From the NCBI RefSeq assembly GCF_009377205.1, contig NZ_VJZE01000001.1:1-64000 (forward strand): 64,000 bases of DNA, written 5' to 3'. The notes beneath the pieces are model-generated. The model was not told the DNA's origin. It worked only from the letters and a program-made list of their open reading frames with translations, and searched no databases. The stretch is from Streptomyces phyllanthi. Its GTDB lineage: Bacteria; Actinomycetota; Actinomycetes; Streptomycetales; Streptomycetaceae. Position numbers and translations under genes: made by a program. Shown piece after piece: positions 2,689 through 51,360 of the stretch (positions within the stretch are counted from its first letter, which is position 1; the number at the start of each line of letters is the position of its first letter).

Positions 2689-3369
2689 TCAGAAACTGGT
2701 CGGCTCGGCACGCACCAGGCCGGTCTGATAGGCAATGACCACAAGTTGAGCACGGTCACGGGCGCCGAGCTTGGTCAAGGCACGCTGAATGTGTGTACGC
2801 ACGGTCAGGACGCTCAGCACGAGCTTGTCGGCAATCTCGTTGTTGGAATGGCCTTGGGCGACCAGTGCGGTGACTTCACGTTCGCGCGGAGTGAGGTCGC
2901 TGAGGCGTTCAACGGGCGCGATGAGGGCTGCTGGCGAGGAGCCGGTGAGGAAGCGCTTGATCAAGGTCCGGGTGGCCCCCGGTGACAGCAGGGCCTCGCC
3001 GGCTGCGACGGTACGGATCCCTGTCAGCAGCGCTTCCGTGGTGACGTACTTGCCCAGGAAGCCACTGGCACCGACGCGCAGGGCCTGGGCGACGTATTCC
3101 TCGGTCTCGAACATGGTCAGAACGAGGACTCGAGTGGTGGCCAGATCGGGGTCGTCGCAGATTGCGGCCGTGGCTGTCAGACCGTCCGTGCCCGGCATGC
3201 GGATGTCCATGAGGACGACATCAGGGTGATGAGTGCGGGCGAGGTCAACGGCCTCTTGGCCGTCCCCGGCCTCGCCGACCACCTCCATGTCGGCGCAGGA
3301 GTCGATCAGGAGCCGGAACGTGCCTCGCAGCAGGGCTTGGTCGTCGGCGAGCAGGACACGGATGGTCAA
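2689..3369 (-). CDS. NarL/FixJ-family response regulator
   Basis: A 226-residue two-component regulator. The receiver has acidic residues D9/D10, the phospho-acceptor at about D55 in HPDVVLMDIRMPG, and the conserved lysine near 107 in ASGFLGK. A LuxR-type HTH follows at about 155-215 (LTPREREVTALVAQGHSNNE). The start is an unusual TTG at 3369, preceded by GAGG, and it overlaps the kinase stop by 4 bp (TTGA), so the pair is translationally coupled. The cognate sensor is the upstream kinase. The likely target is the MMPL exporter promoter, where a NarL-type 7-2-7 inverted repeat is present. Confidence 0.93.
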   Translation of the reverse strand: MTIRVLLADDQALLRGTFRLLIDSCADMEVVGEAGDGQEAVDLARTHHPDVVLMDIRMPGTDGLTATAAICDDPDLATTRVLVLTMFETEEYVAQALRVGASGFLGKYVTTEALLTGIRTVAAGEALLSPGATRTLIKRFLTGSSPAALIAPVERLSDLTPREREVTALVAQGHSNNEIADKLVLSVLTVRTHIQRALTKLGARDRAQLVVIAYQTGLVRAEPTSF

Positions 3370-4700: not shown

Positions 4701-7040
4701 TCAGACACGCACCTCGACCGACTCGTCCGGGGTCGGGTCCGGGTCGAGAACCTGACTTTCGGCAGGCCGACGGCTCAAGGCCTCACCCTCCACGTCGACC
4801 CGGGGCAGGATCCGATCCAGTCCATTCGGCATCCACCAGGCCTTCTCCCCAAGCAGGGCCAGAACAGCGGGCACGATCGCCATCCGCACGACAAAGGCGT
4901 CGAAGAGCACTGCGGAGGCCAGGCCGAACCCGATCATCTTGATCATGGAGTCGTGCTCACCGATGAAGCCGGCGAAGACCGCGATCATGATCAGCGCGGC
5001 GGCCACCACAACTCGAGCACTGTGACGGAACCCGGAGACCACCGCCTGCCGGGCCGACTCCCCGTGGACGTAGGACTCCCGCATCCGGGCGACAAGGAAG
5101 ACCTCGTAGTCCATGGCAAGGCCGAAGACGATACCGACCAGGAAGATCGGCATCAGGCTCATGATCGGCCCCGTCTGCTCCACGCCGAACAGGCTCGCAC
5201 CATGGCCCTGCTGGAAGACCAGGACGACCACGCCGAGGGCTGCCAGCACCGACAACAGGAAGCCCAGTGCCGCCTTGATCGGCACCAGCACGGACCGGAA
5301 GACCACCAGCAGCAGGACGATCGCCAAACCGACCACCACGATCAGATACGGCACCAGCGCCGACTGAACCTTGGTGGCGATGTCGATGTTCAGCGCGGTC
5401 GTGCCGGTGACCTCGAAGGACGCGTCGGCCTCCGACTCGATGGCGGGGCGTTCACCACGGATGGTCTTGACGAGGGTCTTGGTCTTCTCGTCGGTGGGGC
5501 TGGTGGACGGCGTGGCCATGAACACCGCGGTGTCACCAGCCTCGTTGAAGCGCGCCTGCGAGACCGAGACGATTCCCTCGGTGTCCCCGATCTTCTCGCT
5601 GATCGTCGCCACGGCCGCCTTCGCGTCGGCGGAGCCCTGAGCGTCCACGACGATGGTCAGAGGCCCGTTGAAGCCGGGTCCGAAACCCTCGGCGAGATCG
5701 TCGTAAGCGCGGCGTTCCGTAGTGGAGGTGGGCTTGGCCTCGTCGCCGGGCATACCCAGCTGGAGGGAGGTCATCGGTATCGCAAGTGCGCCGAGACACA
5801 CGACGCCGAGGATGAGTACGGGGAGCGGGCGGCGCAGCACGAAGCGGGCCCAGCGGGTGCCCATGTTGTCCCGGTCGCGCTTCTCCGCCGAGAGGCTGTT
5901 CAGAGGCACGACCTCGCCCTCTGTGCTCTTCCGGGCCAGGGCCTTCCGCCCGGGCAGCAGCCGCCTGCCTCGCGCGGCTCGCCGGCGGACCTCGGCGGTC
6001 TCACCCTCCTTGGATTGCTTGCGGGCCCGGCGTGTCAGCACGGCGTTCGGCCAGAACCCGAGGAACGCCGGGACGACGGTCAGCGCGACCAGCACGGCGA
6101 CGACAACCGCGCCGGCGGCGGCCAGACCCATCTTGGTCAGCATCGGGATACCGACCACCGACAGGCCGACCAGCGCGATGACCACGGTGAGCCCGGCGAA
6201 GACGACCGCCGACCCGGCGGTACCGACAGCCAGCCCGGTCGCCTCCTCCGGCGTCCGGCCCTTCGCGCGTTCCTCGCGGTAGCGGGAGACGACGAAGAGG
6301 GCATAGTCGATGCCGACCGCCAGCCCCAGCATCATCGCCAGCGTGCCGGTGCTCGTGGACAGCCCGAGCGCGTCGGACAGGGCCAGGATCGAGAACAGGC
6401 TCACGCCGACGCCGAGGATCGCGGTCAGCAGCGGTAGCCCGGCGGCGGCCAGCGAGCCGAAGGTGAACAACAGCACGAGCGCCGCCACCGAGATGCCGAT
6501 GATCTCGGCGACCCCGCCCGGACCGCCACCACTGTCCATCGCCGAGCCACCGGCCTCGACGGTCAGGCCCGCCTCACGCGCCTGGTCGGCGGCCTTCTCC
6601 ACCGCCGTACGACTGGCGTCGGTGACCTGGTCGGACGCTACCTTGTACGACACCGTCGCGTACGCCGTTGAGCCGTCCTTGCTGACCGCCTGCGACTCGA
6701 ACGGGTCCGCGACGCCCGCCACCTGCGAACCATCGGCCAGCGAGTCGACCGCTTCTTCGATCGCCTGCCGGTTGTCGGTCGCGGTCACCTTCTGGCCGTC
6801 GGGGGCGACGAACACCACCCGCGCGGTGGCCCCGTCGGCCGCTGCGCCAGGGAAACGCTGTTCCAGGAGGTCGAATGCCTTCTGGGATTCGATCCCAGGC
6901 ATCGAGAATTCCTCGTCGGAGGCTGCCGGCGCCTGCAGAGCACTCAGCCCCACGGCGGCTAGGAGGGCCACCCACATGAGGGCGACATAGCCTCGCCGCC
7001 GGAAGGCCATACGGCCCAGTCGATACAGAAAAGTTGCCAC
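4701..7040 (-). CDS. MMPL-family transporter (RND superfamily), copy 1
   Basis: About 779 residues with a typical MMPL/RND layout: an N-terminal membrane helix (residues ~18-38), a first periplasmic loop, six helices, a cytosolic basic linker (TRRARKQSKEGETAEVRRR), a second N-type helix and loop, and five more helices. GIDYALFVVSRYREERAKG and GLAMDYEVFLVARMRESYVHG are the two copies of the proton-relay region. I prefer the GTG start at 7040 (VATFLYRLGRMAFRR) because GGAG lies 9 nt upstream and the paralogue aligns from the same point; a TTG at 7055 would add five residues. Its likely role is export of a lipid or antibiotic. It is strongly similar to the copy at 48913-51273. Confidence 0.93.
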   Translation of the reverse strand: MATFLYRLGRMAFRRRGYVALMWVALLAAVGLSALQAPAASDEEFSMPGIESQKAFDLLEQRFPGAAADGATARVVFVAPDGQKVTATDNRQAIEEAVDSLADGSQVAGVADPFESQAVSKDGSTAYATVSYKVASDQVTDASRTAVEKAADQAREAGLTVEAGGSAMDSGGGPGGVAEIIGISVAALVLLFTFGSLAAAGLPLLTAILGVGVSLFSILALSDALGLSTSTGTLAMMLGLAVGIDYALFVVSRYREERAKGRTPEEATGLAVGTAGSAVVFAGLTVVIALVGLSVVGIPMLTKMGLAAAGAVVVAVLVALTVVPAFLGFWPNAVLTRRARKQSKEGETAEVRRRAARGRRLLPGRKALARKSTEGEVVPLNSLSAEKRDRDNMGTRWARFVLRRPLPVLILGVVCLGALAIPMTSLQLGMPGDEAKPTSTTERRAYDDLAEGFGPGFNGPLTIVVDAQGSADAKAAVATISEKIGDTEGIVSVSQARFNEAGDTAVFMATPSTSPTDEKTKTLVKTIRGERPAIESEADASFEVTGTTALNIDIATKVQSALVPYLIVVVGLAIVLLLVVFRSVLVPIKAALGFLLSVLAALGVVVLVFQQGHGASLFGVEQTGPIMSLMPIFLVGIVFGLAMDYEVFLVARMRESYVHGESARQAVVSGFRHSARVVVAAALIMIAVFAGFIGEHDSMIKMIGFGLASAVLFDAFVVRMAIVPAVLALLGEKAWWMPNGLDRILPRVDVEGEALSRRPAESQVLDPDPTPDESVEVRV

Positions 7041-7131
7041 GTCAGCGAACTCCAAGTCCGTTCTCGATTGCCCCTCCAGCCTTGCCGGTGAGGACCTGTT
7101 CCGTCGTCATACAGCTACTGGCAATGCCGCC

Positions 7132-8705: not shown

Positions 8706-9500
8706 TCATTTCCGAGAAATGGGCTGGGCCAACCTCTCGCCGTTCTCCTTCGGCAGAGCGGCCATGATCCGCGCCGCACATGCCTGGAGCGCCTCGATCG
8801 CCCGGCTCTCGTCCGGGTTGACCCCCAGCCACACCACACTGACGCTCGCCGTAGCCCTGCCTTCCGGCCCCAGAACCGGGACCGCCACGCCACTCGCCCC
8901 CGTGAAGAGTTCGTCCCTAGTCACGGCGAAACCGACTTCGCGCGCCTTCGTGATCTCCGGTCGCTCTCCAGGACGGGGGTTGTCACCAGCCAGAATCGCC
9001 AGACCGGAAGCTGCCTGCGTGAGTGGATGGCGAAGCCCAGGGCGGTAGGCGATGTGCATCCGAGAGACGACGGGCTCCTGAACGATGGCCACCACCCCGT
9101 CCTCGCCATGACGGATCGTGAGGGCACAGGTGCAAGAGAGCTCGTTGGCCAGTTCCTGCAGCTCTTGCGCGGCGACCTCCTGGAGCCGTGAACGCACATT
9201 GGCCGCGAGGTTGAGCAGCCCCAGGCCGAGCGTGAATCGCCCGTCCGGCCGGCGCTCTACGAGGTTCGCCGCTTCCAAGGGCTTGAGGAGCCTGTAGATG
9301 CCGGCTCGGTGCGTCCCCATCTCTTCAGAGATCGCGGACACCGTCAATCCCAGTGGACGCTCACCGAGCAGCGTGAGCACGCGCAGCCCGCGCTCGAGAG
9401 TGAGAGAACCCCCGGCCGACTCACCGGCAGCACTCTTTGGTGCTGATGGCCGGGACACCGTTGCGTCTTCTCCGTCCGGACCCTGGGGCTCTTTTGTCAC
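8706..9500 (-). CDS. IclR-family transcriptional regulator
   Basis: A 264-residue protein. A ~30-residue polar N-terminal tail precedes the winged HTH (about 33-95: LTLERGLRVLTLLGERPLGL, then HRAGIYRLLKPLEAANLVER). The IclR effector-binding GAF-like domain follows (about 110-255, with MHIAYRPGLRHPLTQAASG and GVAVPVLGPEGRATASVSV). IclR proteins usually control uptake or catabolism of aromatic or organic acids next door. The neighbouring permease at 9859-11331 and the oxidative cluster beyond it are the natural targets, but I see no shared operator. An imperfect dyad (ATAGCGTCGCACTAT) sits just upstream of its start near 9515-9530 and may be its own operator. Confidence 0.9.
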   Translation of the reverse strand: MTKEPQGPDGEDATVSRPSAPKSAAGESAGGSLTLERGLRVLTLLGERPLGLTVSAISEEMGTHRAGIYRLLKPLEAANLVERRPDGRFTLGLGLLNLAANVRSRLQEVAAQELQELANELSCTCALTIRHGEDGVVAIVQEPVVSRMHIAYRPGLRHPLTQAASGLAILAGDNPRPGERPEITKAREVGFAVTRDELFTGASGVAVPVLGPEGRATASVSVVWLGVNPDESRAIEALQACAARIMAALPKENGERLAQPISRK

Positions 9501-9858: not shown

Positions 9859-11331
9859 CTACGCCTCCTCGCGTCCGATTCGGGCATAGATCTCGGGACG
9901 GCGTCCACGCAGTGCGACGGCGAAGGCGACGCCCACGATGAAGACCGCCGAGAAGACGAGGAGCGTGCCGTTGCGGAATGCCGCTGAACCACCCATGAGA
10001 GAAGGAAGGTTGAGGAGCGCAATGGTCACGCAGAGCAGCAGGAAAGCCGTGGCAAGGGCGGCAGAGATACGGTATCGCCAGATCGCGGCAGAGCTCTGGA
10101 CGCGCGCGAAGTAGACGAGCGCGGCAAGCGAGGTGAGCGACAGGGCGAACGCGATCGGAGCTGAGGACGCACCGGCGAACCATGAGTAGACCTCCTCGCC
10201 CTTCATACCGAGAGCGGCCATGACACCGGCGCCCAGGAGCATGGCGCCGCTCGTCGTGAGCGAGGCGATGTGGGGCGAGTCGTGACGTCCGTGCACCGCC
10301 GCGAGGGGCTTGGGGAGGATGCCGTCCTTCGCGAGGTTGAACACGTACCGGCTCATCATGTTCTGCAGCCCCAGGTGGGAGGCAGCGATGCTGGTGAGCA
10401 GCAGCACGGACGTGACGTCGTTGAAGCCCGCGCTGATGTAGCGCTCGGACACGGTGAAGAAGGAACCAGCCAGGTCATCGTTGACGGCCTTGACAGCCTG
10501 GGAAGTGCCGAGCCCGGTGATGACCGCCCACGAAGTGATCGTGTAGAAGACGCCGATCAGGACCACGGAGATGATGGACGCCCGCGAGATGGTCTTCCCG
10601 GGCTGGGAGGTCTCGTCGCGGTAGATGGCGGTCGACTCGAAGCCGACGAAGAACAGGATCGCGAGCACCAGGGCGAGGCCGACCTGGCCGGAGAAGAACT
10701 CGTCCGGGGTGAAGACGGTGGCGGAGACACCTTCGGGGCCGCCCTTGGCGAAGACGACCGCATCGAAGATCAGCACGACAAGCACCTCGACGAACAGGGC
10801 GACGCCGAGCACCTTCGCCGAGATGTCAATGCGAAGGTATCCGAGGGTGCCCACGATGGCCCAGAACAACAGCGACCACACCCACCACTGCACATCCGGA
10901 CCGCCCTCCCGGACGACGAACGCTGCGGTCGCGACGCCGGCATAGCCGTAGAAGCCGAGGGACAGGACGGCGTAGGCAAGGAGGGTGAGGAACGAGGCAC
11001 CCAGGCCGATGGGCTTGCCCAGCCCCGCACAGATGTAGGCGTAGAAGGAACCGGGTCTCTCCACGTACTGCGCCATCCCGCCAAAGGCGACCGCGAAGAG
11101 GGCGAGCGCGACGGTGATCACCAGGAAAGTGGTCGGGGTGCCCAGTCCGTTGCCGTAAGCGATGTTGATGGACACGTAGCCCGTGGTGGCGCTCAAAGGT
11201 GCGGCCAGGGCTATCGCCGAGAAGATCAGGTCACGGGTTCCGAGCTTGCCACGCAGCTGCTTTCCGGTGGCACCGTCCGCCGATGAAGGCGATCCAGGGT
11301 CCACGGCAATGGGTTCACCAGTGGTAGCCAT
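9859..11331 (-). CDS. APC-superfamily amino-acid/organocation permease
   Basis: The ATG at 11331 (MATTGEPIAVDPGSPSSADG), with AAAGGAACG upstream, gives 490 residues. About 12 membrane helices start at residue ~35 (DLIFSAIALAAPLSATTGY) and include the family motif region PGSFYAYICAGLGKPIG and FVGFESTAIYRDETSQPGKT. The family carries amino acids, polyamines or related amines by proton symport. The protein is preceded by three 20-bp tandem repeats in its leader and ended by a strong terminator. It lies between the IclR gene and the reductase/dehydrogenase/P450 block, so it may import that pathway's substrate; this is inference. An in-frame extension to 11442 is open but is translated from the repeat region and unlikely to be used. 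Confidence 0.9.
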   Translation of the reverse strand: MATTGEPIAVDPGSPSSADGATGKQLRGKLGTRDLIFSAIALAAPLSATTGYVSINIAYGNGLGTPTTFLVITVALALFAVAFGGMAQYVERPGSFYAYICAGLGKPIGLGASFLTLLAYAVLSLGFYGYAGVATAAFVVREGGPDVQWWVWSLLFWAIVGTLGYLRIDISAKVLGVALFVEVLVVLIFDAVVFAKGGPEGVSATVFTPDEFFSGQVGLALVLAILFFVGFESTAIYRDETSQPGKTISRASIISVVLIGVFYTITSWAVITGLGTSQAVKAVNDDLAGSFFTVSERYISAGFNDVTSVLLLTSIAASHLGLQNMMSRYVFNLAKDGILPKPLAAVHGRHDSPHIASLTTSGAMLLGAGVMAALGMKGEEVYSWFAGASSAPIAFALSLTSLAALVYFARVQSSAAIWRYRISAALATAFLLLCVTIALLNLPSLMGGSAAFRNGTLLVFSAVFIVGVAFAVALRGRRPEIYARIGREEA

Positions 11332-11354
11332 CGACGTTCCTTTCGAGGGGGAAT

Positions 11355-11414
11355 CCTGCGGCCTCAAGGCTGTGCCTGCGGCCTGAAGGCTGTGCCTGCG
11401 GCCTGAAGGCTGTG
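11355..11414. repeat. three tandem copies of a 20-bp unit in the permease leader
   Basis: CCTGCGGCCTSAAGGCTGTG is repeated three times without gaps (11355-11374, 11375-11394, 11395-11414); the copies differ only at one C/G. It lies 24 bp upstream of the permease start, so it would be in the 5' leader RNA. Confidence 0.9.
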
Positions 11415-12173
11415 AGAGATGAGCGGAGAACTGACCAGCCATCGCCGGCGAGTGCGTCTTCGACCCAGTGCTCTGGGCGACGCGTCAGTCTTGTTCTCGT
11501 ACACTCAGGGAGTGAGCGATAAGTGTCAAGACGCGCACAGATAACGTTCGACCGATTTAACTAACCATTGCCGACCCCGAGGCCTCAGGCATCTGATCCA
11601 CTCCACGCGCACCACGCGCCGGAGACATGAGATCCCAGGAGGGGCCAGCAAGAGATGACGCCGGTCGAGGCAGGTCAGGCCCCGAGCCGACGATCAGAAA
11701 TCACACACGAACAACGGCAGGAGCGATCTACGGGCGGCAACTCATCGCACGCTCCGAGCAAATTATGCGAGCAGCAAAAATGGTGCCCTCAACAGCAATG
11801 AAGGGGCGCCGCGTTCACCAAAGGGAATACCGTTAACCGTGCGGCCAGATGAGGCATTTGGTAGCTTTGGTCAACCGATGGCGAAGGTTCTGGCCTTGAT
11901 TGACGCCCATACCACCGCCAGACAATGCGTCCGCCGGAGCACGCCCACGGCGGATCGAGCTCGCTGCGGCAGTCGAGTCCGAGCACCCAACACTGGGCGC
12001 GAAGAAATACTGCACCTGGTGTTCAAATAACGTCCGTCGGCAACCACCTTCCGCATGTCCGACAGGCCCTGCCGATTGGGCTGACCGTACGGTCGAATCC
12101 CGACCACCCCACTCCCACGACTTCACCGAGAGCGAGGCAGCCCCCTTCGGCAGGGCCACTGGGTAACCCCAGC
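11415..12173. other. 759-bp gap, permease promoter side, no supported gene
   Basis: No protein family is recognisable on either strand and no RNA gene is evident. The base composition in 11500-11800 is less G/C-rich than the neighbouring genes. The permease promoter must lie in the left part, and the end of the reductase transcript in the right part. Confidence 0.4.
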
Positions 12174-13345: not shown

Positions 13346-14092
13346 TCACGCCACCAGTCGGTCCAGGGCGTACTTGACGTCGGCCTTCAGAAACGTCTCG
13401 ACCGGGAGACCGTCCTTGAGATTGGCGCGGTGGGCTTCCAAGGCACGCTGCGTCTCTTCGGGCGTGACCGCTGTGAGGCGGGCGTTGACGTAGCCGATCC
13501 AGCGACGCTGGTCGGGTAGCTCCGAGTCCTTGTACTCCTGGATGGGGGTGAGGATGTCCAGGCTCTGCACGGTGTTCGGCTCGACCTTGTCCGACGTGGC
13601 GTGGATCTCGATGTCTGCTTCGGGGGTCCTGCCGCTGGCGTCGTACGCGATGACGGTCCTCATACGATCCTTGACCGCGATCACCTCGGGCCAGATCAGG
13701 TCGTAGCGCTTACGCTCGCCGGCAGGAACGGCCAGTCGCGTGATCGCCCGGTCGTTGATCGCCTGCAGCACCTTCGCCGGGTTGTTCTCGACGACCGTCT
13801 CCTTGTTGTGCGGCCAGAAATCGTACATGCTGAGGTCACCGAAATCCCGGCCCACGTGAATCGCGTAGATCTCGGGATAGATGTCCTTGATTCCCGCCGC
13901 ACGGCGTGCCCGGAAGAACTCGGAAACGGCGCCCTGAATCAAGAGGCTGGCTCCGATCGCTCCCCATGCCTCGTGGATCACGATGCCGAAACGGTCATGC
14001 CGGTCCCAATCGGGGAAGATGGAGTCCATACCTCCCACCGCGCCGTCATGCCTGACCTCGAACATGTCCGGTGTGAGCTGGTTAGTGTGCAC
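13346..14092 (-). CDS. unrecognised 248-residue protein of the P450/dehydrogenase block
   Basis: I start it at the GTG at 14092 (VHTNQLTPDMFEVRHDGAVG) because GGAGGAAAG sits 7 nt upstream; the open frame continues 11 codons further without such a site. It is soluble, with no signal peptide or membrane helix, and rich in acidic and aromatic residues. Segments include FPDWDRHDRFGIVIHEAWG, YPEIYAIHVGRDFGDLSMYD and FWPHNKETVVENNPAKVLQA. I recognise no family. The histidines and acidic residues in HDRFGIVIHE, YAIHVGRDFGD and FWPHNKE could form a metal or catalytic site. It lies between the reductase and the FAD dehydrogenase on the same strand, so it is probably an enzyme or accessory protein of that pathway. 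Confidence 0.7.
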   Translation of the reverse strand: MHTNQLTPDMFEVRHDGAVGGMDSIFPDWDRHDRFGIVIHEAWGAIGASLLIQGAVSEFFRARRAAGIKDIYPEIYAIHVGRDFGDLSMYDFWPHNKETVVENNPAKVLQAINDRAITRLAVPAGERKRYDLIWPEVIAVKDRMRTVIAYDASGRTPEADIEIHATSDKVEPNTVQSLDILTPIQEYKDSELPDQRRWIGYVNARLTAVTPEETQRALEAHRANLKDGLPVETFLKADVKYALDRLVA

Positions 14093-14174
14093 GAGACTTT
14101 CCTCCGAATAGGAACGGCTCCACATGGGTGCCGGTGGTTCGATTACTTGCCCAGGCCGATTGGGTTTTCACGGC

Positions 14175-15584
14175 TCACGCCGTCGGACTCGATTCAGAAG
14201 TACTGGCGTGACAACCGCTTCGGCGTCCCAGGACGAGAGCCTTGAGGGATGAGGTGTAGTTCACGTACTCGCCGAAGTAGCCGCCGGCGACGTCTCCGGC
14301 GGCGTAGAGCCCCGGGATCGGCCTGCCGTCGAGCGAGAGCACACGACCGTGTGCGTCGACCCTCAAGCCGCCCAGGCTGAAGCAGATGCCCGCCTGGACC
14401 GGCCAGGCCTCGAAGGGCGCTTCGGTGAGCGGTACGGCACCGTCGGTCTTCGGGATGTCGAGGCTCGTGCCCGCACCACCGCCAGCGGAGTCCGCGTCGC
14501 ATGCGGCGTTGTACTCCGCGACCGTGCGAGCGAGTTCTTCGGGGGAAACGTCGATCAGTTCCGCCAGTTCCTCGATCGTGTTCGCACGGAGGGGCGCCCC
14601 TCCGCTGCTGAACCTCCGCTCGTAGAAGGGATGGCGGCTTCCCTCCGCATCGAGGAGGTAGAACGCCGTTCCGCCCGGCTGGTCCCGGACCGCCTTCTCC
14701 GCGGGCTCCCACAGCGCCTCGTCGACGAACCGCCGACCGTCCGTGTTCACCATGATCCCCAGCGGGCCTCCACCGACGACCCACCGTTCGCCCTTGGCGC
14801 GGGCGTCGATGGTCAGTCCGTGCCACTCACCCAGATCCCCGGTGGTCGCCGCGCCGAGACCGAGGGCGACGCGAAGGCCTTCGCCCTTGTTGTAGTAGGC
14901 GTACCGAGTCAGCGGTACGGCATACCGCGCGCGGGGGCCGAGGTACTGGGTCATGAGCTCGTAGTTGCCGTGGAACCCGCCCGTTGCCAGGATCACCGCC
15001 TGCGCCGAAACGCTGCGGCGTGCGCCGGCGCTTTCGAGAACGACATGGGTGACCGTGCCGTCCTCGCCAGTCCGGATGTCCACGAGTGCGGTCTCGTAGG
15101 CGAACTGCACGCCCAGCCGCTTCGCCTTGTCCTCCAGGACGTCGAGCATCACGTTGCCGCCGCCGTGAGGCATCAGACCGGGCGCGAAGCCGTCGTCGAT
15201 GATGTCGCTCTCGCTGTAGGAGAACTCGAATCCCAGCTGCCGAAGCCACTTGAGAGTCGGTGCCGCGTCCTCGATCCAGGCGGAGAGGAACTCGCGGTCG
15301 ACACCCCACCCGGCGGCGGCCGTTTCCGCCGGCGCCGTGGACGCGCGCAGGGCCGCGATCAGGTCGGGGTCGACCTCATCCACGCTCTTCATGCTCATGT
15401 AGAACAAGTTCTCGCGAGTGTTGCCACCGCGATCGACCGCGGGCGCACGGTCGCAGACAAGAACCCGAGCGCCGGATTCGGCTGCCGCGACCGCCGCCGC
15501 GGCACCCGCGGCCCCGAATCCGGCCACCACCACGAGCGGGGCCTCGTGGACGACTCCATTGACACGTTCAGTAACAGTGCTCAT
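14175..15584 (-). CDS. FAD-dependent dehydrogenase (fumarate reductase/3-ketosteroid dehydrogenase-like, FAD_binding_2)
   Basis: 469 residues. The N-terminal FAD motif is VVVAGFGAAGAAAAVAAAES (about 18-37). NTRENLFYMSM and LMPHGGGNVMLDVLE follow, and the C-terminal FAD segment is PGLYAAGDVAGGYFGEYVNYTSS. The middle capping domain carries the substrate site. The family covers fumarate reductase, tricarballylate dehydrogenase (TcuA) and 3-ketosteroid delta-1-dehydrogenase; the substrate cannot be chosen from sequence alone. With the KshB-like reductase nearby, a ring-degrading (steroid- or terpenoid-like) role is plausible. It is divergent from the TetR gene, with an operator-like palindrome at 15766-15789 in the shared region. 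Confidence 0.88.
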   Translation of the reverse strand: MSTVTERVNGVVHEAPLVVVAGFGAAGAAAAVAAAESGARVLVCDRAPAVDRGGNTRENLFYMSMKSVDEVDPDLIAALRASTAPAETAAAGWGVDREFLSAWIEDAAPTLKWLRQLGFEFSYSESDIIDDGFAPGLMPHGGGNVMLDVLEDKAKRLGVQFAYETALVDIRTGEDGTVTHVVLESAGARRSVSAQAVILATGGFHGNYELMTQYLGPRARYAVPLTRYAYYNKGEGLRVALGLGAATTGDLGEWHGLTIDARAKGERWVVGGGPLGIMVNTDGRRFVDEALWEPAEKAVRDQPGGTAFYLLDAEGSRHPFYERRFSSGGAPLRANTIEELAELIDVSPEELARTVAEYNAACDADSAGGGAGTSLDIPKTDGAVPLTEAPFEAWPVQAGICFSLGGLRVDAHGRVLSLDGRPIPGLYAAGDVAGGYFGEYVNYTSSLKALVLGRRSGCHASTSESSPTA

Positions 15585-16011: not shown

Positions 16012-16623
16012 ATGGCTCACGTTCCAGCAGACGAGCGACGTATCCAGCTCATCCAGGCCGCCTCACGCGTGATCAGTCGCCAAGGGGTCAACGGCGCCAC
16101 AACACGAGCCATCACCACCGAAGCCGGGGCTCCGCAAGCAATTCTTCACTACGCTTTCGGTAGCAAAGACGCACTTTTCGCCGAATTGCTCCGCTGGTCG
16201 ACAACCATCACTGACGAGATTTTCGACGAAGCCCGCATTCCAACCGGTTCTGGTCTGCTGGAGGCCGTCAATGAGCTCCTCGGTGGTTACCGAAACGTCG
16301 ACCGCTCGCTGACGTTCGCCCAGTTCGACATTCTCCTCTGGAGCATGCGGAACGAGGCCACGGAGAGCGAGGCCGCAGACCTCTACGAGCGCTTGCTTTC
16401 CCAAATCTCCTCGTCCCTGGAAAGGGCGGCCCGCGAGAATGAGCGTGACGCTGATTTCCGGTATCTCGCCAAGTTGATTCTGATCATTTGCGACGGAGTT
16501 CAGTTCGGCATGCTCTGCGCTGGTGACAGCTACGTCGACGCCGAGGACATCACAGGAATCGCGAAGATGATCCTGACCCTCGCCCAAACGCGCGCCCCCC
16601 TGCCCAGCGGCCATGGGGGCTGA
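16012..16623 (+). CDS. TetR-family transcriptional regulator of the P450 block
   Basis: 203 residues. The N-terminal TetR HTH is at about 10-56 (QLIQAASRVISRQGVNGATT, then FGSKDALFAELLR). The helical ligand domain fills the rest, with a cysteine-containing C-terminal helix region (LILIICDGVQFGMLCAGD). It is the only regulator inside the dehydrogenase-P450 block. Two near-identical palindromes, one in its own divergent promoter and one upstream of the ferredoxin/reductase genes, make it the natural repressor of both transcription units. The inducer is presumably a pathway substrate. An AGGGAGAAAA site precedes the ATG. Confidence 0.92.
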   Translation: MAHVPADERRIQLIQAASRVISRQGVNGATTRAITTEAGAPQAILHYAFGSKDALFAELLRWSTTITDEIFDEARIPTGSGLLEAVNELLGGYRNVDRSLTFAQFDILLWSMRNEATESEAADLYERLLSQISSSLERAARENERDADFRYLAKLILIICDGVQFGMLCAGDSYVDAEDITGIAKMILTLAQTRAPLPSGHGG

Positions 16624-16880: not shown

Positions 16881-18116
16881 TCAACCAGCAGCCTGCTGAG
16901 GCTCGAAGACGATCGGCACGCTGGTGAAGCCGGCCGCCTGACCGCCCTCCCAGGTGACTTCCTTGCCCTCGCGCTTGTCCAGCTGGAACTCGGGGACCCG
17001 CTTGAGGAACTCCTCCACGGCGACCTTCGCCTCGACCCGGACCAGATGGGCGCCGAGGCACCGGTGGACGCCCTGTCCCAGGGACAGGTGGGGGTTCGGC
17101 GACCGGTCGGGGATGAGGTAGTCGGGGTTGGGGAAGACCTCGGGGTCCCGGTTCGCAACCCCCGAGAGGGTCATGACCGTGTCGCCCTTCTTCATCGCGA
17201 TCCCGTGGAACTCGATGTCCTCGGTGACGAGCCGGCACGGGGCGGGGCCGGTGTAGAGCCGCATGATCTCCTCGACCGCACCGGCGACGAGAGAGGGCTT
17301 GGCCAGCAGGCGCCGTCGCAGGTCGAGGTCCCAGCTCAGCCTCCAGATGGACCCCGAGATGATCCGCGAGGTGTTCTCGAGACCGCCGATGAGCAGGATC
17401 GTGAAGAAGCTGAGCAGCTCCCAGTCCGTGAGGCGCTCGCCCTCGAACTCGGTGTCGATGATCGTCGAGAACACGTCGGTTCCCCCGGGCTTCCGGCGGC
17501 GCTCGTCGATCACGTTCTGCACGTAGGCCGTCATGTCGGCCACCTTGCGCTTGGCGCCCTCGGGATCGGTGAGGTGTCCGCGCGCCATCGCCTCGACCCA
17601 GTCCCGGTACATGTCGCCGTCTTCGGCGGGCAGTCCGAGGAACGCCGCGGTGAACTGACCCGGCAGTTCGTTGGCCAGTCCCTGTGAGACGTTGACCTCG
17701 CCCTGCCCGATGAACCGGTCGATGAGACGGTTGGCGTGCTCGCGCACCTGGTCGGTGAGCGCCCGGGCCCGCATGGGGTTGAACGGCCCGGCCACCATCT
17801 GACGGTACTTGCGGTGATCGGGGTCGTCCTGCTCCGCCATCATGAGGATGGCGTCGCCGGTCTCGTACTTCGGGAAGATGTTCCCCTTGTTGGAGAACGT
17901 CTTGGTGTCCTTGAGGATGTCCTGGCATTCGGCGTAGCCGCCGGCGACCCAGAAGCCCCCGTACATCTCGCTCCGGCCGATTCGCTGACCGGCCGCGACC
18001 TGGTTGCGGATGGCCTCGATGTAGTCGCTCGGGGAGCCGTCCGGGCCGATGTGTGGGTTGTAGTGATCGAAGTCTTTGAAGATGTCGCCTGTTGCGTTCT
18101 CAGCGCCTGTCGTCAT
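16881..18116 (-). CDS. cytochrome P450 with Asn in the oxygen-activation motif
   Basis: 411 residues, class I bacterial P450. The I-helix is LLIGGLENTSRII (residues ~241-253): the acid is E247, and the usual Thr that follows it is N248. This is the same substitution as Asn242 of the cineole hydroxylase P450cin, and the GGLE/GGLD context resembles P450cam. The K-helix ExxR is EEIMR at ~282-286, and the heme ligand is C353 in LSLGQGVHRCLG (the usual first Phe is Leu). Electron donors are encoded just upstream: the putidaredoxin-like ferredoxin and its reductase. A terpenoid or other alicyclic substrate is plausible. The ATG start has a GGAACGACG leader. Confidence 0.93.
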   Translation of the reverse strand: MTTGAENATGDIFKDFDHYNPHIGPDGSPSDYIEAIRNQVAAGQRIGRSEMYGGFWVAGGYAECQDILKDTKTFSNKGNIFPKYETGDAILMMAEQDDPDHRKYRQMVAGPFNPMRARALTDQVREHANRLIDRFIGQGEVNVSQGLANELPGQFTAAFLGLPAEDGDMYRDWVEAMARGHLTDPEGAKRKVADMTAYVQNVIDERRRKPGGTDVFSTIIDTEFEGERLTDWELLSFFTILLIGGLENTSRIISGSIWRLSWDLDLRRRLLAKPSLVAGAVEEIMRLYTGPAPCRLVTEDIEFHGIAMKKGDTVMTLSGVANRDPEVFPNPDYLIPDRSPNPHLSLGQGVHRCLGAHLVRVEAKVAVEEFLKRVPEFQLDKREGKEVTWEGGQAAGFTSVPIVFEPQQAAG

Positions 18117-18168
18117 CGTCGTTCCGTTTCCGTGAGTGCGGTACGCCTGAGCTGGTTCGACCTGGCCG

Positions 18169-19557
18169 TCACGCCGTGCCGTCGAGGGGCGTCACGGAGG
18201 TGGGGTAGTGCTCCCGGTCGACCGGCGGGATCTCGTTGCCTTCGGCGATCCACTTGTCGCACAGGGCGATGAACTCCTCGGTTTCGAGGTCCTCGGGCCG
18301 CAGGTCGTACAGGGCGTCGTTGACCGTGGAGGAGACGTCCGGGCGCTGGGTGGAGAGCACCTCCATGGCGAGGCCTCGCGCCGCGTCCTGCTCGGACATC
18401 GGGGTGAAGTCGTCACTCCACTCGGCGCCCTCGAAGCACGCGTCGGTGGAGCCGGCGAGACCGAAGGCTCCGTCGAGGATCGGCGCCAGGTCGTTCTGGA
18501 TCGCTCGGGCGACGCCGTCGAGGTCGTCGGCGGCGGCCAGGTGCTCCATCACGAGGACAGCAGCGGCTGCGGACAAGCTCATGCCCTGTCCGTAGATGGG
18601 GTTCATCGACGCTGCCGAGTCACCGACGGCCAGGAACCTGTCGGGCATGTTCGGGACGAGGTTCCAGCGGCGAAGCAGGGAACCGTCGATGTGGTACGTG
18701 TTGACGTCGCTCACCGGCTCCGCCTTGCGGGCGATCTCGGCCGACAGCGGGGTCGTGCTCTCGGAGAGGAACTCGATGACGCCCTCGCGGTCACGCGGCG
18801 GGTAGTCGCGCATCATGCCCACGGCCGTGAGCGCGTGGGTGCCGTTGTCGGCGGGGAACAGCGCGATGCCCCGGTGCTCGCCCGGCCACGGCAGCGCGCC
18901 GAGTCCGATGACCCCGTGCTTCAGCGCGTCGTCGGGCAGCCGGACGAACTGTGTCGCGTATCCCGTGTAGGCGTTGACGAAGGACTCGGCCGGAGCCTCG
19001 ACCCCGTGGGCCGCCAGCCAGTCCGGGGCCTTGGTGCGCCGACCGGTGGCGTTGATGACGAGATCGGCGTCGAGGGACGAGCCGTCCCGGAGAGTGACCC
19101 CCGTGACCTTGCTGCGGTCTTCCGTCACCTCAAGACCGGCGACGGAGGCGTGCACGATCTCGACATTGGGAAGAGCCTGTACCCGCCGGCGGATGACCAG
19201 CTCAAGCAGGGGACGACGGGTGGCCACCCACTCCTGACCCGGCACCCGGAGGCGCCAGCCGGCGCCCGTCAGGGCAACCACACTGGCCGCCTCGTCGAAG
19301 GGGGCACCACCCTCCGCGAGGAGGTCCTCGCGGAGACCGGGGAGCACGGCCTGCATGCGCTTCAGCCCGGCGGGGAGAAGAGCGTGGATCTGGGCGCCCT
19401 GGGGAACGCCTTTGCGCGGTTCAGCCTTGTCCTCGAGCGTGTCCCGCTCGAGGACGGTCACCTTCTCAAAGGACTTGCTGGCTGCGCCGGCGGCGAGCAG
19501 GCCCGCGATGCTGGCCCCGATGACGACCGCGTGGTCGAACTTCGAAGACGTGGACAT
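18169..19557 (-). CDS. FAD-dependent monooxygenase/oxidoreductase (group A-like)
   Basis: 462 residues. The N-terminal dinucleotide motif is AVVIGASIAGLLAAGAASKS, followed by VTVLERD (ribose-binding acid at the end of beta-2). The C-terminal flavin motif is FLAVGDSAASMNPIYGQGMS. The region ATRRPLLELVIRRRVQALPN is typical of this hydroxylase/geranylgeranyl-reductase-like family. It lies 52 bp upstream of the P450 gene on the same strand and is likely co-transcribed with it. The reaction is probably hydroxylation or desaturation of the P450 product. TGGAGGTACCACC precedes the ATG. Confidence 0.88.
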   Translation of the reverse strand: MSTSSKFDHAVVIGASIAGLLAAGAASKSFEKVTVLERDTLEDKAEPRKGVPQGAQIHALLPAGLKRMQAVLPGLREDLLAEGGAPFDEAASVVALTGAGWRLRVPGQEWVATRRPLLELVIRRRVQALPNVEIVHASVAGLEVTEDRSKVTGVTLRDGSSLDADLVINATGRRTKAPDWLAAHGVEAPAESFVNAYTGYATQFVRLPDDALKHGVIGLGALPWPGEHRGIALFPADNGTHALTAVGMMRDYPPRDREGVIEFLSESTTPLSAEIARKAEPVSDVNTYHIDGSLLRRWNLVPNMPDRFLAVGDSAASMNPIYGQGMSLSAAAAVLVMEHLAAADDLDGVARAIQNDLAPILDGAFGLAGSTDACFEGAEWSDDFTPMSEQDAARGLAMEVLSTQRPDVSSTVNDALYDLRPEDLETEEFIALCDKWIAEGNEIPPVDREHYPTSVTPLDGTA

Positions 19558-19632
19558 GGTGGTACCTCCAGATGAAAGGGGGCCTACTGCGCCCTGGAAT
19601 CGCCCGACTGGGAATGTGGGGTCGCCCTGACT

Positions 19633-19648
19633 GCGTCAAAGCTGACGC
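19633..19648. other. short inverted repeat between ferredoxin reductase and monooxygenase genes
   Basis: GCGTCA-AAGC-TGACGC lies in the 144-bp gap. It is a possible small hairpin or operator; too short to assign a role. Confidence 0.3.
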
Positions 19649-19701
19649 TCTGTTTCTGCTGTCGATCACGCAGAGGCGCACTGCCTCCGCTCAGAGGGGT
19701 G

Positions 19702-20937
19702 TCAGACCGGCGTCAACGCCGTCGACATGTCTGTGACCCGCTCCGGATCGATCGTTCGTCCGGCGGCGAGGGCCCGACGGACAGCCATGTAGTCGCGCGG
19801 AGAGTTGACGGCGTCCACCGCGAGGAGCTGACCATCGCGGTAATAGAGCACCGAGAACTTCTCTTCTTCGGGTCGCCCACGCACGAGTGCGGTGTCGAAT
19901 CCGGAGGAAAGGCCGGCGATCTGCAGCTTGAGGGTGTCCTGGTCGGACCAGAACCAGGGAACCGAGGTGTACGGCTCGGCTCGTCCAGCGATCGTCGCGG
20001 CGGCGCACTTCGCCTGGTCGACCGCGTTCTGGACGGATTCGAGACGCACGCGCGCGCCACCGGCGAACGGATGCGACGTCGTGGTGCAGTCACCGGCCGC
20101 GACGACCGCGGGGTGACTCGTCCGCGCGTACTCGTCGACGACGATCCCGTTGTCGCATTCCAGCCCGAGCTGTTCGGCAAGCGCCAGACGTGGCACCACA
20201 CCGATGCCCACCACGACGAGGTCCGCGGGCACCGTCGTACCGTCGGCGAGCTCGACCGCCGTCACACGCCCCTCACGTCCCTCGAATCCGACCACCGAGG
20301 CACCCAGCCGAACCTTGGTTCCACGCCGCTCGTGGGCCTCCCGGTAGAACTCCGAGACGACCGGCGCGACAACGCGACCGATGAGCCGGTCCGCGGCCTC
20401 CAGCACGGTCACGTGAAGGCCTCGGGCCCGTGCCACTGCGGCAGCCTCGAGGCCGATGAACCCACCGCCGATGACGACGACGCTCTTGGCCACGGCGAGG
20501 TCCCGCTTGAGGGTCTCGGCATCGGAGAGGTCCCTGAGGTAGCTGATCCCCAGGAGGTCGGAGCCGGACAGACTCAGCCGGCGTGGGCTGGCGCCCACCG
20601 TGAGAGCGAGGTGAGCGAACTCGAACGCGCGCCCCCCGCTCGTGACCGCCACACCGGGGGCTGTTCCGTCGGCGCCCGGGGCAGTCACCTGGGTCACGCG
20701 TGCACCGCGGACGACTTCAATGCCCTCTCGGGCGAAGTAGTCGTCGGAGCGCAGCGCCAGGCTGTCGGCGTCCGCCTTGCCCGCGAGGAACGCCTTCGAC
20801 AGCGGAGGCCGCTGATACGGGAGTGCCACCTCCTCACCCACGATGGTGATCGGGGACTGCCATCCAGACTCACGCAGGGAACACGCCACCTGCACCGCGG
20901 CCTGGCCGCCTCCGACGACCAGCAGGCCCGAGCTCAC
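19702..20937 (-). CDS. ferredoxin reductase (putidaredoxin reductase-like)
   Basis: 411 residues. The FAD motif is LLVVGGGQAAVQVACSLRES, the NAD motif is VVVIGGGFIGLEAAAVARAR, and the second FAD segment is VVAAGDCTTTSHPFAGG. A C-terminal reductase dimerisation domain follows (VPWFWSDQDTLKLQIAG). It passes electrons from NAD(P)H to the ferredoxin encoded just upstream and so to the P450. The GTG start at 20937 overlaps the ferredoxin stop by 4 bp (GTGA). It is more like CamA than like the reductase at 41528-42709, which serves the second P450 set. Confidence 0.93.
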   Translation of the reverse strand: MSSGLLVVGGGQAAVQVACSLRESGWQSPITIVGEEVALPYQRPPLSKAFLAGKADADSLALRSDDYFAREGIEVVRGARVTQVTAPGADGTAPGVAVTSGGRAFEFAHLALTVGASPRRLSLSGSDLLGISYLRDLSDAETLKRDLAVAKSVVVIGGGFIGLEAAAVARARGLHVTVLEAADRLIGRVVAPVVSEFYREAHERRGTKVRLGASVVGFEGREGRVTAVELADGTTVPADLVVVGIGVVPRLALAEQLGLECDNGIVVDEYARTSHPAVVAAGDCTTTSHPFAGGARVRLESVQNAVDQAKCAAATIAGRAEPYTSVPWFWSDQDTLKLQIAGLSSGFDTALVRGRPEEEKFSVLYYRDGQLLAVDAVNSPRDYMAVRRALAAGRTIDPERVTDMSTALTPV

Positions 20938-47940: not shown

Positions 47941-48750
47941 TCACCGGCAGAGCTGGCGAGTGTTCCTGTGATCAACTGTCCTCACAGCGCCGGTCGGCTG
48001 TTGAGGCAGGCCGACGCGGCGTACCGCGGAGTGCGGCGGATCCGGCGCAGTGGCGACACAGGGCCGGACCAGACCCGCCTCGTAAGCGAAGACCACGGCC
48101 TGGACCCGGTCGCGGGCCCCGATCTTGGCGAGCATGTGACTCACATGGGACTTGACCGTGCTCTCAGCGACGTGCAGGCGTTCGCCGATCTCGGCATTGC
48201 TCCAGCCGGCGGCCACAGCGATGAGGATCTCGCGTTCACGGGCTGTGAGCTCCGAGAGATTCCGCTCCGGCTGCGGAACGCAGTGGGGAAGGAAACGGGC
48301 GACCGCGTCGATGAACTTGCGGGTCAGGCCGGGTGCGATGACGGCGTCTCCAGCCGCCAGCATCCGGATCGTCGCGATCAGTTCGTCCGGCGACGCATTT
48401 TTGGACAGGAATCCGCTGGTGCCGGCACGCAAGGCCTCATAGGCGTACTCGTCGACGTCCAGCGTTGTCAGGACCAGGACACTGGGCATGCGTTTCCCCG
48501 CCCCGACGGAGCCGAAGTTCTGCGGGAGTACGGCTCTCTGAGCAATGCGCCGGATGGCCTCGATGCTGTCCATGCCCGGGTCGTGGACATCCATCAGGAC
48601 GACGTCGGGGCTCAGTTCAGCGCTCTTGCGGACCGCTTCGGCGGCGTCTGCGGCCTCGCCGACGACAGTCATGTCGGGCTGAGCATCCAGCAACGCGCGG
48701 AAGCTGAGGCGAAGCAGGGTCTGGTTGTCCATGAGGAGAATGGTGATCAC
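47941..48750 (-). CDS. orphan NarL/FixJ-family response regulator next to MMPL copy 2
   Basis: 269 residues from the GTG at 48750, with GGAGAG 8 nt upstream; an open extension to 48825 lacks such a site. The receiver phospho-acceptor is about D54 (SPDVVLMDVHDPG) and the lysine is in GFLSKNASPDE. The acidic pair is D8-N9 rather than D-D. An extra loop of ~10 residues (PQNFGSVGAGKRM) precedes beta-4. The HTH is LTAREREILIAVAAGWSNAE. A ~40-residue polar tail follows. No kinase gene is adjacent, unlike the paralogous locus at 2689-7040, so it may be cross-phosphorylated or phosphorylation-independent. Confidence 0.9.
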   Translation of the reverse strand: MITILLMDNQTLLRLSFRALLDAQPDMTVVGEAADAAEAVRKSAELSPDVVLMDVHDPGMDSIEAIRRIAQRAVLPQNFGSVGAGKRMPSVLVLTTLDVDEYAYEALRAGTSGFLSKNASPDELIATIRMLAAGDAVIAPGLTRKFIDAVARFLPHCVPQPERNLSELTAREREILIAVAAGWSNAEIGERLHVAESTVKSHVSHMLAKIGARDRVQAVVFAYEAGLVRPCVATAPDPPHSAVRRVGLPQQPTGAVRTVDHRNTRQLCR

Positions 48751-48859
48751 GACGGTCGCTCTCCGGAGTTGTTCGCTGTGGCAGGGCTGGGTGAGATCGG
48801 CTGGTAGGCATCGGGCCCGGGGCAAACCGAGCTCTATGGTGGAAGGTCGCCAGCCTGCG

Positions 48860-51273: not shown

Positions 51274-51360
51274 GGCAGACTCCATATCGGTCTCGGGTAC
51301 CTGCTCAGGCTGCCTTTGAAGGTGCCGCCGGGTCGTCGTGCCGCTGCTGGCAGTTTCGAC

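Follow-up and report, generated by a model that had tools for sequence, protein, structure and literature searches.

Trimethylamine and trimethylamine N-oxide (TMAO) are important nitrogen and one-carbon sources. The TMAO demethylase Tdm is reported to be a DUF1989 domain with a three-cysteine zinc site followed by a GcvT domain that lacks key folate-binding residues (PMC12560246), and DmmD is reported to have a GcvT domain too (PMC5520151). For Gram-positive methylotrophs, a 2015 survey looked around the trimethylamine monooxygenase gene without finding one of Tdm type; it described EutQ cupins near methylated-amine genes, proposed a role for them in methylated-amine oxidation, and offered a reductase-like gene as a tentative TMAO demethylase, Tmd (PMC5023230).

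Here we describe a protein family, labelled FAM, defined by the gene at 13346-14092 of a 64,000-nucleotide stretch of Streptomyces phyllanthi (the window). FAM has loci in common with the HODM/dimethylamine monooxygenase type (PF11927, DmmABC) in Bacillota and Micrococcaceae and with EutQ-like cupins, parallels Tdm in architecture in three genomes where a FAM domain is N-terminal to GcvT, and is predicted to fold like the PIG-L/LmbE de-N-acetylases (PF02585; LnmX, DAC, BshB, MshB). It also differs from them. The window protein has neither a DUF1989 match (Pfam) nor a GcvT domain, FAM matches none of the Pfam models for PF11927 or the DmmA-like subunit, and the EutQ-like cupin is a smaller, different protein that is often FAM's neighbour. 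Compared to PIG-L/LmbE proteins, FAM has no AHPDD motif, no detected sequence or profile kinship, and other gene neighbours. Section 3.3.1 of the 2015 survey does not mention FAM (PMC5023230), nor do the titles and abstract openings, mostly from outside subscription journals, on a Gram-positive TMAO demethylase or a link to cupins, where a nameless family is hard to find.

The gene and its neighbours in the window

The initial annotation had placed a 248-residue open reading frame at 13346-14092 without giving its strand. It is present on the minus strand, among the following features:

8706-9500, minus strand: IclR-family regulator
9859-11442, minus strand: open reading frame for an APC-type amino acid/amine permease, clustering with permeases near FAM in loci L003, L007 and L015
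12174-13217, minus strand: FAD/NAD/2Fe-2S reductase, 347 aa; NCBIfam matches PaaE (179 bits) and GbcB (141 bits), both below cut-off
13346-14092, minus strand: FAM gene, 248 aa; GTG start at 14092, TGA stop at 13346-13348
14097-14105, minus strand: GGAGGAAAG, ribosome-binding-site-like, in the 25 bases inspected 5' of the GTG start
14175-15584, minus strand: FAD_binding_2 flavoprotein, 469 aa; top NCBIfam match tricarballylate dehydrogenase TcuA, below cut-off
16012-16623, plus strand: TetR regulator, transcribed away from the flavoprotein gene
16881-18116, minus strand: P450, 424 bits to P450cin; runner-up protein 183 bits
18169-19557, minus strand: FAD-dependent monooxygenase; PDB relatives MonCI and LasC
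19702-20937, minus strand: ferredoxin-reductase-type flavoprotein (Pyr_redox_2 and Reductase_C)

The open reading frame is a real protein-coding gene. The good ribosome-binding site and proper codon use claimed for it were both found: GGAGGAAAG lies just 5' of the GTG and is presumably the ribosome-binding site, judged by the consensus, and the GC content by codon position (0.645/0.403/0.843) is like that of the neighbours. An in-frame ATG farther 5' would give an alternative product of 259 aa. We preferred the GTG because all 58 sequences of our alignment A2 start with Met-His, the starts having been set at a Met-His-type site wherever one existed.

The likely operon order is FAD_binding_2 flavoprotein, FAM and FAD/2Fe-2S reductase, with the flavoprotein as the likely lead gene and gaps of 82 bp (flavoprotein to FAM) and 128 bp (FAM to reductase). 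The TetR gene is a candidate regulator of this operon.

Beyond it, the genes at 16881-20937 (P450cin-like, MonCI/LasC-related monooxygenase and ferredoxin-reductase-type) may together serve the catabolism of cineole or a terpenoid. Elsewhere in the window, two near-alike MmpL/RND-like transporter genes (4701-7055 and 48913-51285, read by eye from the list of open reading frames) have response-regulator-like genes near them (2689-3369 and 47941-48825, respectively), perhaps a duplicated cassette.

A sparse family and its predicted fold

At E<=10, neither Pfam nor NCBIfam gave any match to the window protein, and the best hit among PDB sequences had an E-value of only 0.72. Ten members of alignment A1 had no convincing match in these three collections either. 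The view that the protein belongs to no known family was therefore borne out, and no sequence or profile search produced a confident match to a known enzyme family.

Relatives were found in 16 plasmid records, with a top identity of 56%; 14 of the 16 are annotated as 'hypothetical protein' and two are unannotated. For genome contigs, a scan with the single protein gave 19 stretches and none was confirmed; an alignment scan then succeeded, with 94 of 125 pattern-matched stretches confirmed as FAM and the best 80 of the 94 kept as loci. Since relatives occur in these plasmid records and contig stretches, the gene is not a chance open reading frame. FAM hosts belong to Actinomycetota, Bacillota, Pseudomonadota, haloarchaea and one Chloroflexia (Chloroflexota). 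FAM was detected in one of 100 genomes related to the window genome (the window genome itself), in 3 of 299 genomes of the Bacillus methanolicus class (B. methanolicus counted), and in 10 of 395 genomes of the family of G491 (Micrococcaceae; G491 is an Arthrobacter and is counted). Thus, FAM is a widespread, sparse, undescribed family without a name.

A quick tree divided FAM into two clades and paired the window protein with its sister from a Mesorhizobium plasmid (SH-aLRT 97), with the protein of Rhodococcus opacus next (92). The window protein and the B. methanolicus relative are 30% identical. Some genomes hold several copies: Domibacillus aminovorans DSM 1314 has three FAM loci (L070, L075, L089), and so does Bacillus sp. 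OV166 (L062, L064, L076, the last yielding no FAM open reading frame). Interrupted copies lie on plasmids of Paracoccus versutus (L006:9989-10768) and Mesorhizobium sp. NZP2077 (L008:9965-10731).

Incomplete or interrupted sequences (L040, L041, L067, L083, L090-L092, and L006, L008 and L012 on plasmids) were set aside before alignment A2 was built. Of the 72 usable contig relatives, 15 were then removed because their identity exceeded 90%, so that 57 entered the alignment. Ten residues are invariant in the 58 sequences: M1, H2, D33, R34, G36, G47, Y72, N113, I117 and T118. The peptides HDRFGIVIHE, IHVGRDFGD and FWPHNKE, whose His, Asp and Glu residues had been proposed as an active site, are present in the translation. 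Within them, D33, R34 and G36 are invariant and H79, W93, P94 and E98 nearly so, whereas H40, D83, D86 and H95 vary. The window copy itself deviates at eight positions conserved in at least 88% of the 57 relatives (F60, I78, L87, T99, N104, V140, H221 and L235).

Structure prediction, which the initial annotation had recommended, indicated a PIG-L/LmbE-like fold in two models: AlphaFold gave a pLDDT of 95.0 for the window protein and 94.6 for the B. methanolicus relative, with a pTM of 0.92 for both. In VIA-align, the first 11 entries for the window model were PIG-L-type (Z 8.5-10.6; next fold 6.3), and so were the first 18 for the B. methanolicus model (Z 9.0-12.1; next fold 5.6), with most top entries assigned from their titles, and with 1uan and 5cgz taken by us to be of this type. 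The superpositions of both models had an rmsd of 2.9-4.3 over 151-171 residues. Foldseek against the PDB and viral models gave no E-value below 0.001, and a weak or absent match there is uninformative.

An AHPDD motif after the first strand binds the zinc in PIG-L proteins. It is absent in FAM, where R or D usually occupies position 40 and E-P usually comes next. Neither the window protein nor the A1 members matched PF02585. Sequence homology between FAM and PIG-L proteins found no support from hhalign, which gave a probability of 0.4% against 32 PIG-L sequences picked by the presence of AHPDD. FAM therefore likely has a PIG-L/LmbE-like alpha/beta fold, as modelled, without the PIG-L zinc motif. 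Because the invariant residues lie mostly just before strands, by predicted secondary structure, the conserved site of FAM, if there is one, may sit at the edge of the sheet opposite the PIG-L zinc site.

Gene neighbourhoods across lineages

The initial annotation had described the gene as holding a constant place, flanked by a KshB-like reductase and an FAD dehydrogenase. The window gene does lie between a reductase and an FAD flavoprotein, but the gene-neighbourhood analysis showed no conservation of this position outside the window. The flavoprotein had no homologue in the other 92 loci (phmmer E<=1e-15), and the fetched stretch of 11 of 92 FAM loci, the window counted, had a reductase that falls into one broad cluster with that of the window; it directly adjoins FAM in the window, L066, L078, L079 and L081. 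We thus rejected a conserved reductase-FAM-flavoprotein order, since the flavoprotein occurs in no other compared locus. We saw no steroid genes near the relatives in the plasmid annotations or among the neighbours selected for naming. Unannotated loci were read from greedy calls of open reading frames, in which errors are expected, and each neighbour cluster was named after one scanned representative.

In Bacillota, the neighbours of the 28 loci with a FAM open reading frame were as follows: an EutQ-like cupin (22/28), an acyl-CoA-dehydrogenase-like flavoprotein (13), FAD synthetase (10), an Hps/OMPdecase-type protein (8), HODM alpha (7), Amt, an OpuAC binding protein and the reductase of that broad cluster (6 each), FMN reductase (5), a DmmA-like protein (4), and OxFMN and DgcB-like proteins (3 each). 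Genes of N-demethylation, formaldehyde fixation or EutQ (HODM, DmmA-like, Hps-type, OxFMN, DgcB-like or EutQ cupin) were represented by one or more in the fetched stretch of 26 of the 28; 'Hps' and 'DgcB' are our readings of broader Pfam matches. The exceptions were L063 and L070, and the genome of L070 has HODM elsewhere. These loci are not 28 independent events, since some are closely related and some share a genome.

A background frequency was obtained for one neighbour kind, HODM. FAM is not its obligate partner: among 396 Actinomycetota, apparently the same draw in both searches, 5 had FAM (the window genome counted), 17 had HODM and none had both. HODM was present in 14 of 15 examined FAM genomes, eight of which had been picked for a nearby HODM; of the other seven, which were also chosen, six had it. 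We also disfavour FAM as the subunit of one oxygenase, because it adjoins oxidases of several different types.

In five Micrococcaceae genomes, one with a decayed locus, FAM lies at most one gene from a trimethylamine monooxygenase (model NF058570, cut-off 675 bits), and all five loci have a EutQ-like cupin, recognised by eye in L166. The monooxygenase adjoins FAM in L024 (749 bits) and L039 (743 bits), and the cupin stands between the two in L164 (746.5 bits) and L166 (723 bits). The decayed locus is L168, where the monooxygenase frame is short (99 bits to that of L024) and FAM is split over two frames. At L168:6172-8227, both genes look interrupted, as if lost together, whereas the HODM and reductase frames next to them persist.

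The L166 stretch is the fullest, with trimethylamine monooxygenase, cupin, FAM, HODM alpha, a reductase, an Amt-like gene, a ligase and an amidotransferase-like frame (Amt-like and amidotransferase-like genes named by eye). Its HODM alpha, of the dimethylamine monooxygenase type, scores 251 bits to that of L066. Its ligase is type III glutamine-synthetase-like, above cut-off, with 355 bits to the glutamate-methylamine ligase 9qur and 374 to 7cql. Between trimethylamine and gamma-glutamylmethylamide, L166 thus has a candidate for each step but TMAO demethylation, and the genes left without an assigned step are FAM and the EutQ-like cupin. The canonical TMAO demethylase (NF053776) had no match at E<=1e-80 in G491, G504 and G918, three of the FAM genomes searched and all with trimethylamine monooxygenase above cut-off; the search did not extend to G1140 (L166) and G1176 (L164).

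Among the ten FAM genomes of the family of G491, a list that does not include G504 (the genome of L024), the fetched stretch contained trimethylamine monooxygenase in G491, G1176, G1140 and G1119 and HODM in G491, G1140 and G1119; six of the ten had neither. Of 38 named FAM genomes, four had trimethylamine monooxygenase above cut-off (G504, G491, G918, G505) and two had canonical Tdm (G505, G503). Given these two counts, the link between FAM and trimethylamine is confined to some lineages.

In G303, G893 and G914, a FAM domain with a Met-His start is fused in frame to GcvT in stop-free proteins of 659-663 aa. In the G303 fusion, PF01571 covers residues 293-545 (E 7e-57), and phmmer detected all three; H79 and H87 are lost in these fusions. 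The fused GcvT parts scored 231-246 bits against the NCBIfam TMAO demethylase (cut-off 1100), over the C-terminal half of the model only, and 220-238 bits against plain GcvT models, and stand-alone GcvT-type proteins of five other FAM genomes scored 273-285 bits against the same Tdm model. Because ordinary GcvT proteins match Tdm equally well, the fusion points to a folate-type partner and not to special kinship with Tdm, and we withdrew the Tdm-likeness of the fused part as evidence. Directly after each fusion (L146:5803-8553, L137:7355-10056, L145:7613-10353) comes a gene whose 241-250 aa product has a similar start and is racemase-like by eye.

Other loci were more varied. L134 (G137) has FAM, three transporter-like frames (by eye), a DAO, an M24 peptidase and a Rieske oxygenase. 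The DAO, downstream of FAM, is of the N-methyl amino acid oxidase type (PRK11259, 311 bits, cut-off 257), and the Rieske oxygenase, also downstream, is closest to glycine betaine monooxygenase, below cut-off. L014, L054, L055, L058 and L067 have OxFMN and CCG/Fer4 genes, with ETF genes in some, sets that we take to resemble dimethylglycine demethylase (DgcAB) loci. L025 has a DAO+GcvT protein followed by PurU-like and FolD-like genes (by eye), L136 has GcvT and a methylenetetrahydrofolate reductase-like gene, and L004 has hydantoinase and isochorismatase genes. In L160-L163 and L165 we recognised no amine genes; a frame of 704-710 aa lies nearby and in L161 is acetate-CoA ligase. Counting Pfam matches in 114 non-Bacillota neighbours, taken from the 166 listed, gave a mixed picture (ABC 6, DAO 5, ETF 4, MFS 4, GMC 3, others fewer). 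The theme of methylated amines and one-carbon units is strong in some FAM lineages and not visible in others.

Proposed role and competing explanations

A role for FAM in the breakdown of methylated amines and one-carbon units is well supported by gene context in several lineages, and FAM probably helps to release or capture a methyl-derived one-carbon unit from amines. The initial annotation had suggested a new enzyme of a pathway. Conservation, predicted fold and context are consistent with an enzyme or enzyme partner outside known families, but many relatives stand with methylated-amine or one-carbon genes and not with KshB-type pathways.

In several lineages, FAM would take part in degrading amines that carry N-methyl or perhaps other N-alkyl groups, acting when the alkyl carbon is released as an aldehyde or transferred to folate. 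By the most likely mechanism, the adjoining oxygenase would make an amine N-oxide or carbinolamine, which would be cleaved without oxidation by FAM, either as the demethylase/lyase itself or as a partner that such an enzyme cannot do without. The formaldehyde could then be accepted by a GcvT domain, as part of the fusion protein in three genomes, be fixed by dedicated enzymes in Bacillota, or be oxidised. That FAM performs or assists such a non-oxidative release of an aldehyde or one-carbon unit is our tentative reading, which we place somewhat short of an even chance.

In some Micrococcaceae, where the FAM gene sits at the place expected for a demethylase, FAM may stand in for the missing TMAO demethylase; from gene order, and from it only, we infer a possible conversion of TMAO to dimethylamine and formaldehyde. 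FAM could even be a second, unrelated amine N-oxide demethylase, with a PIG-L fold lacking the zinc site replacing DUF1989 as the catalytic half, standing beside the EutQ cupin in Gram-positives and fused to GcvT in some Actinomycetota, as DUF1989 is in Tdm; we regard this version as unlikely. Counting against a demethylase role, canonical TMAO demethylase coexists with FAM in G505 and G503, and many FAM loci have no methylated-amine or one-carbon genes.

The demethylase may instead be the EutQ-like cupin, with FAM as an accessory only (metal delivery, allosteric or formaldehyde sensor, or assembly factor). Cupins commonly bind a metal, and this one is near FAM in most Bacillota loci and at all five trimethylamine monooxygenase loci, and occurs without FAM in the 16-kb stretch L169, where a EutQ-like ORF lies directly before trimethylamine monooxygenase (L169:6917-8969; the genome is that of L015, a Mycolicibacterium MAG whose FAM gene is outside this stretch). 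The survey's earlier proposal for EutQ cupins of Gram-positive methylotrophs agrees with this (PMC5023230). However, the Bacillota-type cupin cluster was near FAM in none of 64 non-Bacillota loci, a count that the divergent cupins of L024 and L039 escaped, so FAM also occurs without the cupin, and the GcvT fusions join FAM to GcvT with no cupin. We consider this explanation not especially likely. The same survey tentatively makes the reductase-like gene, and not FAM, the TMAO demethylase (PMC5023230).

That FAM binds or channels formaldehyde (or a one-carbon unit) to tetrahydrofolate without cutting the substrate would suit the unlike kinds of adjoining oxidases and oxygenases, several of which release formaldehyde, as well as the GcvT fusion and the folate-type genes of L025 (GcvT domain) and L136 (GcvT, methylenetetrahydrofolate reductase-like). 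FAM is too sparse for a general formaldehyde system, being present in only 3 of 299 genomes of the B. methanolicus class, and we find this reading quite unlikely. A diverged PIG-L hydrolase with an N-acyl intermediate as its substrate, as a deacylase or deformylase, appears very unlikely: the fold match (Z up to 12.1) favours it, and the same fold hosts GalB, titled a hydratase (5cgz), but the zinc motif is missing, PF02585 and hhalign found no kinship, and the conserved residues are predicted mainly before strands, at the edge opposite the zinc site.

For the window copy, the substrate may be other than a methylated amine, because P450cin-like and MonCI/LasC-type genes are near and a homologue of the latter (377 bits) immediately precedes FAM in R. 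opacus (L003), which also has the APC permease in common with the window. HODM is absent from the window genome, where neither trimethylamine monooxygenase nor Tdm reaches its cut-off. A recruitment to terpenoid (cineole-type) breakdown, with activity on methylated amines lost, would fit these genes (424 bits to P450cin; the R. opacus homologue of the monooxygenase beside the P450) and the eight deviating positions. Against it, the opposite-strand TetR gene separates the P450 from the FAM operon, and the Mesorhizobium sister (56% identity) lies amid Rieske, reductase and DAO-type genes with no annotated P450 in its 20-kb stretch. We think such a recruitment doubtful and, returning to the demethylase/lyase reading, suppose that the window copy may do a version of the FAM reaction despite its deviating positions.

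In several genomes, FAM lies at the missing-demethylase gap of Gram-positive trimethylamine breakdown, and the protein is open to direct expression and assay. With a function, this widespread family, now annotated as 'hypothetical protein', could be named, and, if the N-oxide demethylase reading is true, FAM would fill that gap.
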